Assembly: GCF_024362485.1 (NCBI RefSeq)
Contig: NZ_CP101456.1
Location: 2,356,001-2,420,000, forward strand
Reading direction: 5' to 3'
DNA from: Natronobeatus ordinarius
GTDB taxonomy: Archaea > Halobacteriota > Halobacteria > Halobacteriales > Natrialbaceae
Length of the DNA: 64,000 nucleotides
Positions 2,261 to 21,486 of the stretch are shown one piece after another; position 1 is the stretch's first letter; every line of letters begins with the position of its first letter. The notes under the pieces were generated by a model, which did not search any database, was not told the DNA's origin, and was given only the letters and a program-made list of their open reading frames with translations. The position numbers and the translations under genes are program-made.

Positions 2261-4060
2261 ATGTCGGACACGGACACACGCGACCCAGCCTCTCTCAGAA
2301 CCCCGATCGTCGCCGTCCTCGGACACGTCGATCACGGAAAGACCAGTCTCCTCGATAAGATCCGCGGCTCGGCCGTCATCGAGGGTGAAGCAGGCGCCAT
2401 CACCCAGCACATCGGCGCCACCGCCGTCCCCTTAGACGTCGTCTCGAAGATCGCCGGCGAGCTCGTCAACCCAGACGACTTCGACCTCCCCGGGCTGTTG
2501 TTCATCGATACGCCGGGGCACCACTCGTTCACCACGCTCCGCTCGCGTGGCGGGGCGCTCGCCGACATCGCCATCCTCGTCGTCGACGTCAACGACGGCT
2601 TCCAGCCGCAGACGCTCGAGGCGCTCGACATCCTCAAACGCTCGCACACGCCCTTCATCGTCGCTGCGAACAAGGTCGACACCGTGCCGGGCTGGAACCC
2701 GACCGAGGGCGAGCCGATCATGGAGACCTACGAATCACAGTCCGACCGCGTTCGTTCCGACCTCGACACCCGTCTCTACGAGATCATCGGCAACCTGAGC
2801 GACGAGGGCTTCTCCGCGGACCTCTACTGGCGCGTCCAGAACTTCCAGCGCAACGTCGGCGTCGTCCCCGTCTCCGCGATGACCGGCGAGGGCGTTCCCG
2901 ACCTCCTCGCGGTCATGATGGGGCTCTCCCAGCGGTACATGAAAGAGGCGATGGAGATCGACGTCGCCGGCCCCGGCGTCGGGACCGTCCTCGAGGTCAA
3001 AGACGAGAAAGGATTCGGGACCACGATCGACACCGTCCTCTACGACGGGACGATCCGCACCGACGACGAGGTCGTCGTCGGCGGGACGAACGATCCGATC
3101 GTCACCGACGTCCGTGCCCTGTTACAGCCCCGCCCACTCGCCGAGATCAGGACCGAGAGCCGCTTCGAGAAGGTCGACGAGGTCGGCGCCGCAGCCGGGA
3201 TCAAGATCGCCGCCCCCGACTTAGACGACGCGATGGCCGGCGCACCCGTCCGCGTCGTCCGCGACCGCGACCTCGAGGAGGTCGTCCACGAGGTCGAAGC
3301 CGAACTCGCGGACATCGCCGTCGACACCGAGGAGCAAGGCGTCGTCGTCAAAGCCGACACCCTGGGAAGCCTCGAGGCGATGGCCGACGCGCTCGAGGAA
3401 GCCGAGGTGCCGATCGTCCGCGCCGAGGTCGGCGACGTCGCCCCGCGCGACATTTCCGTCGCCTCGACCGCCGACGACCCCAAACAGCGCGTCATCCTCG
3501 GGTTCAACGTCGACGTCCTCCCCGACGCCGAACAGCGGGCCGAGATCGACGACGTTCGGCTGTTCACCGACGAAGTCATCTACCAGCTTGTCGAGGAGTA
3601 CACCGGATTCGTCGAGGAACTCGAGCGCGCCCAGCAGGACACCATCCTCGAGAACATCACCAGACCCGCCCGGTTCCGGATTCTTCCAGATCACGTCTTC
3701 CGCCAGAACGATCCCGCAGTCGTCGGCGTCGAGGTGAATTCGGGGACGTTGCAAAACAACACCTTCGTCGTGAAGTGGGAGGGCAACGAACCCGAGCGCG
3801 TCGGTCAGGTCAAAGGCATCCAGGAGCAGGGCGAAGACGTCGACGAAGCTCGCGCCGGCGAGCGCGTTTCGGTCGCCATCGACGGCCCCACCGTCGGCCG
3901 CCAGATCAACGAAGACGACGAACTCTGGACCGAAATTCCCGAAAAACACGCGAAGATCCTCGAACAGGAACTCACGACGGAGATCCCCGGCGACGAACTC
4001 GAGGCGTTGAACATGTATCTCGAGAAACACCGAAAACGCGATCCGTTCTGGGGCAAGTAA
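2261..4060 (+). CDS. infB: Translation initiation factor IF-2 (aIF5B)
   Basis: 599 residues, the normal size for archaeal IF-2/aIF5B, a GTPase that promotes ribosomal subunit joining. The G domain is complete: G1 GHVDHGKTS (21-29), G3 DTPGH (83-87) and NKVD (137-140). The beta-barrel domains follow, and the C-terminal domain ends EALNMYLEKHRKRDPFWGK, typical of aIF5B. The ATG at 2261 is chosen because the G1 motif then lies about 20 residues in. It is divergent from the PRC-barrel/nob1 unit across a 192-bp intergenic region. No intein interrupts this copy. Confidence 0.96.
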   Translation: MSDTDTRDPASLRTPIVAVLGHVDHGKTSLLDKIRGSAVIEGEAGAITQHIGATAVPLDVVSKIAGELVNPDDFDLPGLLFIDTPGHHSFTTLRSRGGALADIAILVVDVNDGFQPQTLEALDILKRSHTPFIVAANKVDTVPGWNPTEGEPIMETYESQSDRVRSDLDTRLYEIIGNLSDEGFSADLYWRVQNFQRNVGVVPVSAMTGEGVPDLLAVMMGLSQRYMKEAMEIDVAGPGVGTVLEVKDEKGFGTTIDTVLYDGTIRTDDEVVVGGTNDPIVTDVRALLQPRPLAEIRTESRFEKVDEVGAAAGIKIAAPDLDDAMAGAPVRVVRDRDLEEVVHEVEAELADIAVDTEEQGVVVKADTLGSLEAMADALEEAEVPIVRAEVGDVAPRDISVASTADDPKQRVILGFNVDVLPDAEQRAEIDDVRLFTDEVIYQLVEEYTGFVEELERAQQDTILENITRPARFRILPDHVFRQNDPAVVGVEVNSGTLQNNTFVVKWEGNEPERVGQVKGIQEQGEDVDEARAGERVSVAIDGPTVGRQINEDDELWTEIPEKHAKILEQELTTEIPGDELEALNMYLEKHRKRDPFWGK

Positions 4061-5653: not shown

Positions 5654-6466
5654 ATGTCGATGGGGAACTACAGAACGCTGCGTAGGCAAGCGTTCGAACT
5701 CTTCGAGCCGGAGTTAGGAGGACGGGTCGGGAACTACGTCGATTGGTTCATCATGGCGCTGATCGCCGCCAACGTCGCGGCCGTAATCCTCGAAACCGTC
5801 GACGCGCTTGCTGTGTCCTACGGCTCGTTTTTCCACTACTTCGAACTCTTCTCCGTCGTCGTGTTCACGATCGAATACGTCAGCCGCGTCTGGTCGTCGG
5901 TCGACAATCCCGATTTCGAGGGCCCCATCACTGGCCGCCTCAAGTTCGCCTCACGACCACTGTTGATCGTGGACCTCCTCGCAATCTTGCCGTTTTACTT
6001 AGTCGTTGCTGGCTTCCAGGCGGATCTCCGATTCCTCCGCGCCCTTCGATTAATTCGCCTGTTCCGACTGCTCAAGCTCGCTCGGTACTCGAGGGCCATG
6101 CAGTCGTTCAGCGTCGTTATCGAGGAGAAAAAAGAGAAGCTCGTGCTGGCGTTCTCTTCGAATATCTTGCTTCTCGTGTTGGCCTCGAGCGTGATGTACT
6201 ACATCGAGAACCCATACCAGCCGGAAGCGTTCTCCTCGATTCCGCGGGCCTTCTGGTGGGGTGTCGCAACCCTCACGACCGTTGGCTACGGCGACGTCCA
6301 TCCAATCACCCCACTGGGACAGTTCGTCGGTGCCATCGTTGCGATGCTCGGAATCGGTCTGTTCGCCCTCCCCGCGTCGATCCTCGCCTCGGGATTCATC
6401 GAACAGGCGGGTGACGACGATCCCAGCGGCCAGTACTGTCCCCACTGCGGGGAGAAACTCGAGTGA
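5654..6466 (+). CDS. Voltage-gated potassium channel (KvAP-like) with zinc-ribbon tail
   Basis: 270 residues with six membrane segments. S4 is arginine-rich (RFLRALRLIRLFRLLKLARY), and the pore has the K+ filter TTVGYGD. This is the layout of one subunit of a tetrameric voltage-gated K+ channel. The C-terminus ends with the half zinc ribbon YCPHCGEKLE, an archaeal add-on that may bind metal or protect the tail. An upstream purine-rich stretch is not an evident Shine-Dalgarno. The gene stands alone, about 110 nt after the secreted protein gene. Confidence 0.9.
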   Translation: MSMGNYRTLRRQAFELFEPELGGRVGNYVDWFIMALIAANVAAVILETVDALAVSYGSFFHYFELFSVVVFTIEYVSRVWSSVDNPDFEGPITGRLKFASRPLLIVDLLAILPFYLVVAGFQADLRFLRALRLIRLFRLLKLARYSRAMQSFSVVIEEKKEKLVLAFSSNILLLVLASSVMYYIENPYQPEAFSSIPRAFWWGVATLTTVGYGDVHPITPLGQFVGAIVAMLGIGLFALPASILASGFIEQAGDDDPSGQYCPHCGEKLE

Positions 6467-6509
6467 ACGACGCCAGGACGTCCAGGGCGTAAACGACGCC
6501 AGGCCGTCC
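6466..6509 (+). repeat. Direct repeat at the end of the K+ channel gene
   Basis: AACGACGCCAGGACGTCC at 6466-6483 recurs as AACGACGCCAGGCCGTCC at 6492-6509, 17 of 18 identical with a 26-bp period. The first copy begins at the last base of the channel gene's stop codon. It may be a small tandem duplication. Confidence 0.6.
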
Positions 6510-6598
6510 CGAATCGCTCCCGTTCGGTTACCAGACCGTGACTCAACCAGTAGCTACAGCACGGAAGCCTGTTGCTCACGGGGTTGTTCACAGCAAAC

Positions 6599-6615
6599 TG
6601 CTCCGTCTGGGATTT
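6599..6615 (-). repeat. Partial copy of the tRNA-Glu 3' end (17 nt)
   Basis: TGCTCCGTCTGGGATTT is identical to the acceptor/T-arm end of the tRNA-Glu gene at 6759. It is in the same orientation and followed by unrelated sequence. It looks like an old attachment-site remnant. Confidence 0.7.
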
Positions 6616-6646
6616 CTGTGGCTCGCGGAATTGCTCACCACAGAAA

Positions 6647-6668
6647 TGCTCCGTCTGGGATTTGAACC
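6647..6668 (-). repeat. Partial copy of the tRNA-Glu 3' end (22 nt)
   Basis: The 22 bases starting TGCTCCGTCTGGGATTTGAA match the 3' end of the tRNA-Glu gene (6759-6780) exactly, then diverge. This is the second of two truncated copies in the 160 nt downstream of the tRNA, in the same orientation. A tRNA 3' end repeated in this way is the usual footprint of tRNA-targeted integration. Confidence 0.75.
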
Positions 6669-6758
6669 ACGCCCAGACGTGCTCGCTACGCTGCGCGCGA
6701 CTGGTCTGATTCAAATCCAGGGTCGCATTCTCGGCTCACGAGTTTATTCGCCGAGAAG

Positions 6759-6833
6759 TGCTCCGTCTGGGATTTGAACCCAGGTCATCGGCTCGAAAGG
6801 CCGAAATGATTGGCCGGACTACACCAACGGAGC
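6759..6833 (-). tRNA. tRNA-Glu (anticodon UUC)
   Basis: The minus strand folds as a complete 75-nt cloverleaf including the discriminator base. The acceptor stem pairs GCTCCGT with ACGGAGC, the discriminator is A, and the T-arm contains GGTTCAAATCC. The anticodon stem TCGGC/GCCGA holds the loop CTTTCGA, which places TTC at positions 34-36, hence Glu. CCA is not encoded. There is no intron. The two downstream partial copies of its 3' end indicate that it has served as an integration target. Confidence 0.95.
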
Positions 6834-6993
6834 GTTCGCGCACCTCACCCTCGTCTCGGGTGCTGATGTGCACTCGTTCGTTGCCGTGGCCTAGTAAAAA
6901 GCGTTCCGTTCCGACTCGAGGGTGTCACCAGATCGCACGACGGCCGTCACCGCCTTCTCAACGCTTTTGGGTTCGGGGCACAACTGACCGCGC

Positions 6994-18939: not shown

Positions 18940-21486
18940 ATGAGTTCGGAAGTACCAGACCCAACGGACATCGACGCCGCATCGGTAGAGCCCGTCCGCA
19001 TCGAGGACGAGATGGAACAGAGCTACATCGACTACGCGATGAGCGTCATCGCCGGTCGCGCCCTGCCCCGGGTCGAGGACGGTCTGAAACCCGTCCACCG
19101 CCGCATCCTCTATGCGATGGGCGAGATGGGCGTCACGAGTGGCTCGAGCCACCGCAAGTCCTCCTCGATCGTCGGGGAGACGATGGGTGATTACCACCCC
19201 CACGGCGACCAGGCGATCTACGACACGCTCGTGCGGATGGCCCAGGAGTTCTCGATGCGCTACCCGCTGGTCGACGGCCAGGGGAACTTCGGTTCGATGG
19301 ACGGTGATCCGCCCGCCGCCCAGCGATACACGGAAGCGCGCATGGCCGCCATCGCCGAGGAGTTACTCGAGGACATCGAGAAGGACACGGTCGACTTCTC
19401 CTCGAACTACGACGATCGCTTACAAGAGCCCGACGTGCTCCCCGCGGCGTTCCCGAACCTGCTGGTCAACGGCTCCTCGGGGATCGCCGTCGGCATGTCG
19501 ACGAACGTTCCGCCACACAACTTAGGCGAGGTGATCGACGCCACGATCGCGCTCATCGACGACCCCGACGTGTCCGTCGAGCAGTTGATGGAGCACGTGA
19601 AGGGACCCGACTTCCCGACGGGCGCGAACATCGTCGGCCGCGACGCGATCTACTCCGCCTACGCCACCGGCCGCGGGCGCATCCGCGTCCGTGCCGAGTT
19701 CGAAGTCGAGGAGTGGAAGAACGGTCGCGAACGCATCGTCGTCACCGAACTCCCCTACCAGTCGAACAAGGCCCGACTGGTCGAGCGCATCGCCGAGGAC
19801 GTCAACGAGGGCGATCTCGAGGGGATCACGGACCTCCGGGACGAGTCCGACCGTGACGGCGTCCGCGTCGTCATCGAGCTCAAACGCGGCGCGAACACCG
19901 AGGTCGTCAAGAACAAGCTGCTCGAGAATCACTTAGAGCGCACCTTCGGCGTCATCAACCTCGCGCTGGTCGACGGCCAGCCCCGCGTCCTGACGCTCAA
20001 GGAGACCCTCGAGGAGTACGTTTCCCACCGCAGGGAGGTCGTCCGGCGGCGCAGCGAGTACGACCTCGCGGAAGCCGAAGACCGCGCGCACATCCTCGAG
20101 GGTCGGCTCAAGGCGCTCGAGAACGTCGACGAGGTCGTCGACCTGATCCAGGATTCGGCGGATCGATCCGCGGCGAAGGGGGCCCTCTGTGAGACGTTTG
20201 GCTTCTCAGAAGCTCAGGCCGAGCACATCGTCCGGATGCAGCTGGGCAGCCTCACCTCGATGGAGGCCGCCGAGATCGAAGCCGAGTACGAGGAGGTGAC
20301 GGCGGAGATCGAACGCCTCGAGACGATCCTCGAGAGCGAGACGGAGTTGCTCGAGGTCATCAAAGAGGAACTCCGCGAGATCAAAGCCGAGTACGACGAC
20401 GAGCGCCGGACCTCGATCGTCGAGGACCAGGGGGTAGTTACCCACGAGGACCTCATCCCACAGGAGGACGTCCTCGTCGTCATGACCGAGGACGACTACG
20501 TCAAGCGGATGCCGGTCGACACGTTCGACCCCCAGGGTCGCGGTGGTAAAGGGATCATCGGCGCGGACGTCAAGGAGGGCGACCGCGTGACGTCGGTGTT
20601 CCGGGCGAACACGCACGACTACCTGCTCTGTTTCACCAACCGCGGGAAAGTCTACCAGCTCAAGACCTACGAGATTCCGGAGATGGGCCGCACCGCCCGT
20701 GGGAAGTCCGCGGTCAATATCGTAGACCTCGAACCCGGTGAGAACATCACGGCCATCGTCGACACCGACGCCCTCGATGCCGACGAGTTCGTGACGATGG
20801 TCACGCGCGACGGCTACGTCAAGCGCACGGCGGGCGAGGCGTTCGAAAACATCCTCTCGACGGGGATCATCGCCGCCAGCCTCGAGGACGGGGACGAACT
20901 GGTCGACGTGGCGGTCACCGACGGCTCGAAGGACCTCGTGATCGCGACCGAGCACGGCATGACGATCCGCTTCGACGAGGGCGAGGTCCGGGCGATGGGC
21001 CGGAACGCCCGCGGCGTCAACGGGATCAAACTCGAGGCCGGCGACGCCGTCGCCGGACTGGTCGCGACCGACGAGGGTGACGACCGGGCGCTGTTGACGG
21101 TGACCCAGAACGGCTACGGCAAGCGAACGCCGCTCTCGGAGTATCGCACCCAGTCTCGCTACGGCAAGGGGCTGATCGACATCAAAACCGGCGACCGCAA
21201 CGGCTCCGTAATCGACGTGAAGGCGGTCACCGACGCCGACCACCTCGTTATCATGTCCGATCGGGGACAGATTATGCGGACGCGTGCGGCCGAGGTATCC
21301 ACCGTCGGGCGCAACACGATGGGCGTGACGGTGATGGACGTCGAATCGGGCGATTCAGTCGCCAGCGTGGACGTCCTTCCAGACGTAAACGGAGCAGGAG
21401 AAGCGTCAGACGACGACGTGGCGGAAGAGTCAGACGACGTGAGTGACGAGCGCGCATCCACGGAGCCAGCACCCGAGGACGAGTAG
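18940..21486 (+). CDS. gyrA: DNA gyrase subunit A
   Basis: 848 residues. The catalytic tyrosine is Y130 in [10 protein letters not shown]. The region equivalent to the quinolone pocket reads [18 protein letters not shown], so the usual serine after HGD is Gln91 while the aspartate is kept. The C-terminal beta-pinwheel contains the GyrA box as QGRGGKG, which marks it as gyrase rather than topoisomerase IV. The last 45 residues are a very acidic tail, common in halophiles. It pairs with gyrB upstream. Confidence 0.97.

Follow-up and report, generated by a model that had tools for sequence, protein, structure and literature searches.

Hairpin units behind tRNA genes of Natronobeatus ordinarius and other haloarchaea: a candidate family of non-autonomous mobile elements

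Downstream of an intact tRNA-Glu(ttc) gene, the genome of Natronobeatus ordinarius carries two partial copies of the tRNA 3' end, and the question is whether these mark integrated elements that were later deleted, as the original prediction had it, or belong to a structure of another kind. We examined the locus in a window of 64,000 nucleotides (NZ_CP101456.1, positions 2,356,001 to 2,420,000), from whose first letter the window coordinates below are counted. Read on the minus strand, the 3' end of the tRNA gene is GGTTCAAATCCCAGACGGAGCA; a 22-nt repeat of it lies at 6647-6668, and the last 17 nt of GGTTCAAATCCCAGACGGAGCA are found again at 6599-6615. Both copies had been described as exact and oriented as the tRNA gene, with which their coordinates and minus-strand sequence agree, and the inverted T-arm piece reported near 6710 was likewise found, as CCTGGATTTGAA on the minus strand at 6710-6721. 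The features assigned to the locus, with the basis of each in brackets where one applies, are the following.

6759..6833 (ARAGORN 6758-6833), minus strand: intact tRNA-Glu(ttc) (ARAGORN; Rfam RF00005, 59.4 bits; coordinates checked)
6759-6778, minus strand: T3, the last 20 nt of tRNA-Glu(ttc)
6728..6757, minus strand: h1 hairpin with an 8-bp stem, tandem GA/GA, 2 bp and a 6-nt loop (sequence, fold, family covariation)
6710..6721, minus strand: anti-T arm, the inverted partner of the T-loop and T-stem (sequence; family host-match test)
6667..6709, minus strand: core hairpin of 43 nt, of the TCAGACCAG...CTGGGCGTGG type (fold; core likeness elsewhere)
6647..6668, minus strand: 22-nt exact direct copy of the tRNA 3' end, within which 6647-6666 is the 20-nt T3 copy (sequence)
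6613..6646, minus strand: second h1-type hairpin (fold z -5.5)
6599..6615, minus strand: 17-nt exact copy of the tRNA 3' end, overlapping the second h1 by 3 nt and without h2 (sequence)
6567..6598, minus strand: possible decayed third h1-type hairpin at the end of the array (sequence likeness; fold z -0.4, which is the shuffle level)

For the first unit of the window, the fold of the tRNA-sense strand has -48.1 kcal/mol (z -4.2) and that of the opposite strand -43.2 kcal/mol (z -2.7). Over positions 6450-6950 the gathering score of Rfam 15 was reached by the tRNA alone, so that no known structured RNA family was matched behind tRNA-Glu(ttc). In other genomes, cores that agree with the core of this locus at 42 of 43 nt stand behind tRNA-Ser(tga) and tRNA-Glu(ctc), and at 30 tRNA-Glu(ttc) loci of relatives we observed a unit with another core, a unit with the same core, or no unit. 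At slightly less than even confidence, we regard the window feature as a non-autonomous mobile unit of a haloarchaeal family, present in one and a half copies, the 17-nt copy with its h1 and without h2 being in that case a truncated unit.

A layout repeated behind tRNA genes

The same layout was observed behind most tRNAs of the genome, at loci outside the window; neither this recurrence nor the hairpins at 6728-6757, 6613-6646 and 6567-6598 formed part of the original prediction. A unit measures about 100-160 nt and consists of h1, an inverted partner of the T-loop and T-stem, a variable core hairpin and then the T3 (last 20 nt) of the host tRNA; arrays take the form T3-(h1-h2-T3)n, often with a further h1 at the end. 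A DNA search of the own genome with positions 6500-6900 as query gave 17 places. Using a criterion of 13 nt with at most one mismatch in flanks of up to 450 nt, a copy of a tRNA's own T3 was found downstream of 29 of 45 tRNAs, a census that left out tRNA-Asn, which also has a downstream copy, and upstream of one (in a tandem tRNA-Asp pair). When the T3 sequences of other tRNAs were sought in the downstream flanks, the mean was 0.1 of 45 and the maximum 2 (200 draws), so that the copies lie well beyond chance. Complete units, anti-T arm included, stand behind 28 of the 45 own tRNAs and, in two genomes of one genus (G083 and G208), behind 13 of 38 and 7 of 40, the latter counts resting on 80 of the 90 tRNA matches in these two genomes. 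At tRNA-Val(tac) the repeat is a perfect 118-nt tandem.

Some loci depart from this layout. A member of the hairpin family at about position 3924689 of the own genome has no recognised tRNA beside it (L012), a different repeat of 198 nt behind the own tRNA-Leu(gag) ends in the tRNA 3' end without h1 or h2 (L062), and contig C53 of G189 (20674-21332) carries tandem tRNA-Asp matches 3-4 nt apart, one of them partial.

The pattern GGATTTGAA-N20-50-TTCAAATCC is present in 62 of 81 genomes of the order, the own one included. Among 311 genomes from the rest of the phylum none has it, and the reversed pattern, run as a control, gave no match. With a stricter pattern over GTDB species genomes at least 120 stretches were obtained, and by title 99 of the matches listed are haloarchaeal, 18 belong to other organisms and 3 could not be placed. 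These 99 haloarchaeal loci hold 102 hairpins among the matches listed, and for 93 of them a tRNA of the same strand lies no more than 450 nt upstream; 86 of the 102 end in the T3 of that tRNA with at most 4 mismatches in 20, and the 9 with no recognised tRNA in reach include some at contig ends or at tRNAs misread by ARAGORN. Haloferax is among the genera with units (L132, L167, L191, L197). Outside the haloarchaea the full layout was seen in 4 of 18 hairpins among the matches listed, from Actinarchaeum halophilum, which we take to lie outside the order, two Woesearchaeota and one Rhodospirillaceae. The Rhodospirillaceae locus (L206) may instead be an inverted tRNA remnant. One Woesearchaeota core (L175) has the haloarchaeal CTAGACC...GGGCGT inner arms, and in the phylum of this organism (DPANN) the pattern occurs in 1 of 279 genomes.

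Viral carriage was sought in IMG/VR, where the pattern was found in 109 stretches; none of the 10 with a tRNA in reach or a G+C content above 0.58 resembles the unit behind a haloarchaeal tRNA, and most of these 10 are Bifidobacterium-type hairpins. Loci of this last type (L376, L112, L113, L339, L352, L372, L403 and L413) carry a near-perfect anti-T/T3 hairpin; about 56 nt away from the one in L376 (13876-13933) begins a putative tyrosine integrase gene, whose family was read from the sequence. A folded attP may be used there.

Integrated elements and the deletion-scar reading

The original prediction saw the locus as an integration hotspot whose elements had been deleted. Its first half is supported: the copies mark DNA gained at the tRNA 3' end, and tRNAs serve as integration sites in this genome. 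Real elements are present at three tRNAs and behind the unit of a fourth, as follows.

tRNA-Arg(ccg), 18.7 kb: two ORFs matching Phage_integrase, one of them below the curated cut-off; splits the tRNA from T3-h1-h2-T3-h1-T3
tRNA-Met, 17.9 kb: integrase match inside; splits the tRNA from T3-h1-h2
tRNA-Tyr, 5.0 kb, genome positions 3802716-3807680 (L417/L418): two integrase matches, one of them below the cut-off; lies behind the T3 of the unit
tRNA-Arg(tct), 20.3 kb: integrase matches at both ends; two further units beyond

Displaced T3 copies were searched for in ten 20-kb stretches behind tRNAs with no adjoining unit, namely tRNA-Ser(gct), Arg(ccg), Arg(tct), Arg(tcg), Glu(ctc), Met, Leu(caa), Pro(ggg), Thr(ggt) and an intron-bearing Arg. 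They were found in 2 of the 10, Arg(tct) became the third when more DNA was taken, and in the other 7 stretches no displaced T3 was found. At Arg(ccg), Met and Arg(tct) the units had been displaced to the far side of the element. The tRNA-Tyr element adjoins the T3 copy of the unit and not the tRNA itself, so that its target was apparently this copy, and spare T3 copies may act as attachment sites.

The second half of the prediction, that the locus is the scar of such elements, fared less well. Units of the same build stand behind 28 of 45 tRNAs and recur across the order. No integrase was found at or near the repeats of the window copy, the nearest match lying about 41 kb away, and a tblastn search with seven own integrase ORFs over loci of up to 8 kb, in which distant integrases would be missed, found relatives in 2 of 120 loci among the matches listed (L113, a Bifidobacterium locus, and L182). 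In addition, for three of the four real elements, Arg(ccg), Met and Tyr, the repeat covers 13 nt of the tRNA end, and the element ends are without h1 or h2. It had been proposed that conservation of the copies and their spacing in distant haloarchaea with no integrases at the site would speak against a scar; the outcome agrees with this in kind only, since the architecture does recur but spacing and core sequence vary.

After the search for displaced copies, integrases and element ends, we rejected island scars as the general explanation. A clean refutation is hindered by tRNA-Arg(tct), where a core-like hairpin with a decayed anti arm lies between the integrase gene and a 20-nt T3; this hairpin could be an arm of attP or else a unit that was trapped, and because of it the scar reading was kept as a rival. 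In this form the units would be attachment-site relics of tRNA 3'-end islands that lost their cargo, with h1 and h2 as leftover attP arms, a proposal in line both with the Arg(tct) hairpin and with the anti-T/T3 hairpin of Bifidobacterium-type prophages, in L376 beside a putative tyrosine integrase gene. The rarity of integrase relatives in loci of up to 8 kb and the ends of the Arg(ccg), Met and Tyr elements tell against it, as does the fact that each of the 190 distinct units sampled would need a deletion that left h1 and h2 adjacent, and we hold it to be improbable.

Folding, host match and turnover

The best reading in our view, although still a tentative one, is a non-autonomous mobile unit that folds strand-specifically and targets tRNA 3' ends. 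A body made of h1, the anti-T arm and the core hairpin would enter the tRNA gene at its 3' end, and the last 20 nt of the gene would be duplicated in the process, T3 being then the target duplication; the tRNA would thus stay intact and the unit would end in a host-specific T3 copy. The body would move as a folded single strand, either ssDNA or RNA copied back, and pairing of the anti-T arm with the T-loop, that is of GGATTTGAA with TTCAAATCC, a stretch common to most tRNAs seen, would aim it at tRNA genes. A trans-acting tyrosine recombinase or another transposase is assumed; it counts against this reading that no such enzyme could be tied to the units. The architecture has a strong tie to tRNA 3' flanks, and its orientation is a single one wherever it can be judged.

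In its strict form h1 comprises a stem of 8 bp whose sequence is free, a tandem GA/GA, two covarying pairs (AC/GT or GC/GC) and a 6-nt loop. A K-loop for L7Ae was considered as a possible reading of the tandem GA/GA. Of 196 tRNA flanks, 39 have the strict h1 within their first 70 nt; it occurs upstream in 0 of 196 and further downstream in 2 of 185, and in these 39 the 8-bp stem begins at most 7 nt from T3; the strict loop is seen in only 55 of 190 units, elsewhere the hairpins being longer or variant. Among 37 distinct sequences 96.2% of the cells are paired, 98 cells changed on both sides as compared to 29.7 in shuffles, and the covariation score was 0.738, as opposed to no more than 0.175 after sliding. 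A double change was seen in 8 pairs, a number that 67 of 500 shuffles reached as well.

Folding is favoured on the tRNA-sense strand. When stems were measured without folding, G.T exceeded A.C in h1 (18 to 3 in the 39 strict h1; 22 to 8 in a larger set of 49 distinct ones), and in 170 units the h2 counts were 24 and 4 for the T-loop helix and 48 and 2 for inner pairs 1-2. Inner pair 3 is opposite (G.T 3, A.C 14), being Watson-Crick in 61 of 170, and A.C exceeds G.T at outer positions 2-8, where few cells are paired in that ungapped register. The sense fold was more stable than the antisense fold in ratios of 123:44 for h1, 152:36 for h2 and 133:52 for the core, as compared to 100:85 for a far-flank control, strand and pair cells alike counting sequences and not events. 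Among 23 core representatives less than 70% identical the ratio was 17:6 (p 0.025), with G.T 6 and A.C 1 at the inner pairs; since dissimilar cores give only 17:6, part of the sense-strand excess comes from shared ancestry. As far as sequences can tell, the bias suggests that selection has acted on one strand, the one of tRNA sense, which could be RNA or ssDNA alike.

The occupancy of tRNA loci differs between related genomes. At tRNA-Leu(taa), G083 and G208 carry different units (h1 and core) with the further flank in common, a replacement within the genus, and at tRNA-Ile the cores differ and the flank is not in common. A unit is present at Glu(ttc) in G083 only and at Val(gac) in G208 only; because the further flanks are unlike or weakly alike, displacement is possible at both. 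For tRNA-Leu(cag), the own locus reads T3-[126-nt unit]-TCACTTCTG... (L054) and two others read T3-TCACTTCTC... with the same next gene (L302, L303), which we read as a filled and an empty site, compatible with gain or loss. In Haloferax larsenii (L159), identical 57-bp unit segments were noticed at 41-97 and 3647-3703. The distance between them is 3.6 kb, and the second follows a tRNA-Glu-like 3' part that was read by eye and in which ARAGORN called no tRNA. Such a duplicate segment is a possible route of transfer.

Strong h1 covariation, the excess of G.U over A.C on the sense strand, the closeness of the stem to T3 in the 39 strict h1 and the lack of any reversed core among those that can be judged would also be explained by a functional pre-tRNA trailer RNA, whose transcript would need h1 and h2 for tRNA 3' processing, for sequestering stray T3 or for tRNA regulation, core changes being then due to gene conversion among trailers and fast stem drift. 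A folded ssDNA strand would, however, yield the same bias, many tRNAs have no unit (G083 has one at only 13 of 38 tRNAs, G208 at 7 of 40), Leu(cag) lacks it in two genomes, and presence at Glu(ttc) and Val(gac) differs between G083 and G208, albeit with displacement possible. We consider a trailer RNA unlikely, although well worth keeping in mind.

Of 190 units, 132 carry an exact T3 copy; in the others the definition of a unit limits the copy to at most 4 mismatches. The anti-T arm also matches its host: beyond the T-loop octamer the match to the T3 of the own host was 4.35 as compared to 2.92 for permuted hosts, a value reached in 0 of 2000 permutations (n=189), and the match is only partial. 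A trace of a donor tRNA in the anti-arms was found in 26 of 189 units and in 51 of 189 shuffles, below the control. Near-identical cores are found behind different tRNAs and in different genera. At 90% identity or more there are 78 pairs of cores behind different tRNA species, two of which are fully identical, over 28 and 43 nt and in different genomes, and core identity between different tRNAs (0.594, n=867) is little lower than that between genomes at one and the same tRNA (0.656, n=35). The units of Halorubrum tRNA-Asp (L106) and tRNA-Ser(gga) (L121) have bodies that are 88% identical, with T3 sequences that differ at only 2 of 20 positions. Gene conversion among units, without transposition, could account for the sharing of cores.

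Host-matched arms and the perfect 118-nt tandem at tRNA-Val(tac) would be expected if replication slippage or template switching at the T-arm palindrome had produced T3, inverted T3 and T3 at each tRNA independently, but this accounts neither for cores that are nearly the same at different tRNAs nor for an h1 loop that recurs, and we find such an origin very improbable. An orientation motif of the core is forward in 63 units and reverse in none, 127 of 190 having neither; recombinase flipping via inverted cores was rejected on this count, within the units that could be judged.

Comparison with known systems

The attL/attR pairs that flank elements at archaeal tRNA genes (SNJ2, HF2 and others of tyrosine recombinases) resemble the units in having a direct repeat of the tRNA 3' end and an intact tRNA. 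The units, in contrast, have neither cargo nor integrase, their repeat is of 20 nt from the T-loop and comes with h1 and h2, and they recur behind most tRNAs of the own genome; the 13-nt repeat and the ends without h1 or h2 that characterise the Arg(ccg), Met and Tyr elements are not those of the window unit, Arg(tct) being the exception. Casposons carry genes for Cas1-solo and PolB and make a target duplication of 14-15 nt; the repeat of the unit is 20 nt, and a unit of this length would have no room for either gene.

Integron attC sites and other folded-ssDNA recombination sites show strand-specific folding, a conserved box helix, an unpaired spacer and a variable terminal structure. In all of these respects the unit is alike, and its folding bias and variable cores would suit a strand-specific folded site with a variable terminal structure. 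It differs in having no ORF cassettes and no demonstrated integron integrase, and in a T-loop box that takes the place of the attC boxes: the attC box is GTTRRRY, which the T-loop sequence GTTCAAA does not fit.

Short, non-coding and transposase-free repeats have been described in Haloquadratum as MITEs, PATEs and small mobile repeats (SMRs), together with integrations at tRNA-Glu, and the PATEs bear palindromes as the units do (PMC3119063, available part). The units differ from what is given there in being tied to tRNA 3' ends and in having a host-specific 20-nt duplication and a host-matched arm. PATEs and SMRs have no target duplication according to the same part of that source (PMC3119063); the unit, when compared with the IS200/IS605-related PATEs, has palindromes but also the 20-nt T3 repeat. 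When it is compared with MITEs, a host-specific T3 stands on both sides of the unit and would have been duplicated on insertion, and the one inverted pair noted in the unit is that of the T-loop. In Haloferax gibbonsii LR2-5 partial tRNAs beside full copies were reported as remnants only, the available part giving no hairpins, unit or family (PMC7921747). The unit is not described in the available parts of these two papers or of a review of archaeal tyrosine recombinases (PMC8371274), and a literature search, with subscription papers outside its scope, gave no recognisable description.

No described class that was tested here or is known to us combines the four traits of the unit, which are its tRNA 3'-end location, host-specific 20-nt duplication, host-matched arm and single-strand folding, and within the literature covered we consider it a new kind for this reason. 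It would be an apparently undescribed structured element found behind most own tRNAs and behind at least one tRNA in most sampled genomes of the order, at a position shared by tRNA 3' processing and site-specific integration, and it offers an alternative to taking every tRNA 3' fragment for the scar of an island. A mobile unit would be a tiny element targeted via a sequence common to most tRNAs; a unit that acts as RNA would be a new pre-tRNA trailer structure.

A bolder and rather improbable extension of the mobile reading is that haloarchaeal tRNA genes are integron-like platforms that capture cargo-free hairpin cassettes, with a recombinase that would read the T-loop box and move folded single strands. 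The near-universal box would be TTCRAATCC paired with GGATTYGAA, each insertion would duplicate T3 so that the tRNA survives, and the spare T3 copies would take the hit of real elements, as with the 5-kb element at tRNA-Tyr. As a minor observation, the tips of the cores (for example in L016 and L018) are often GAGCGAAGCGAG, a tandem GA/GA around a GCGAAGC mini-hairpin that follows the same motif logic as h1; the GCGAAGC mini-hairpin is stable in DNA.
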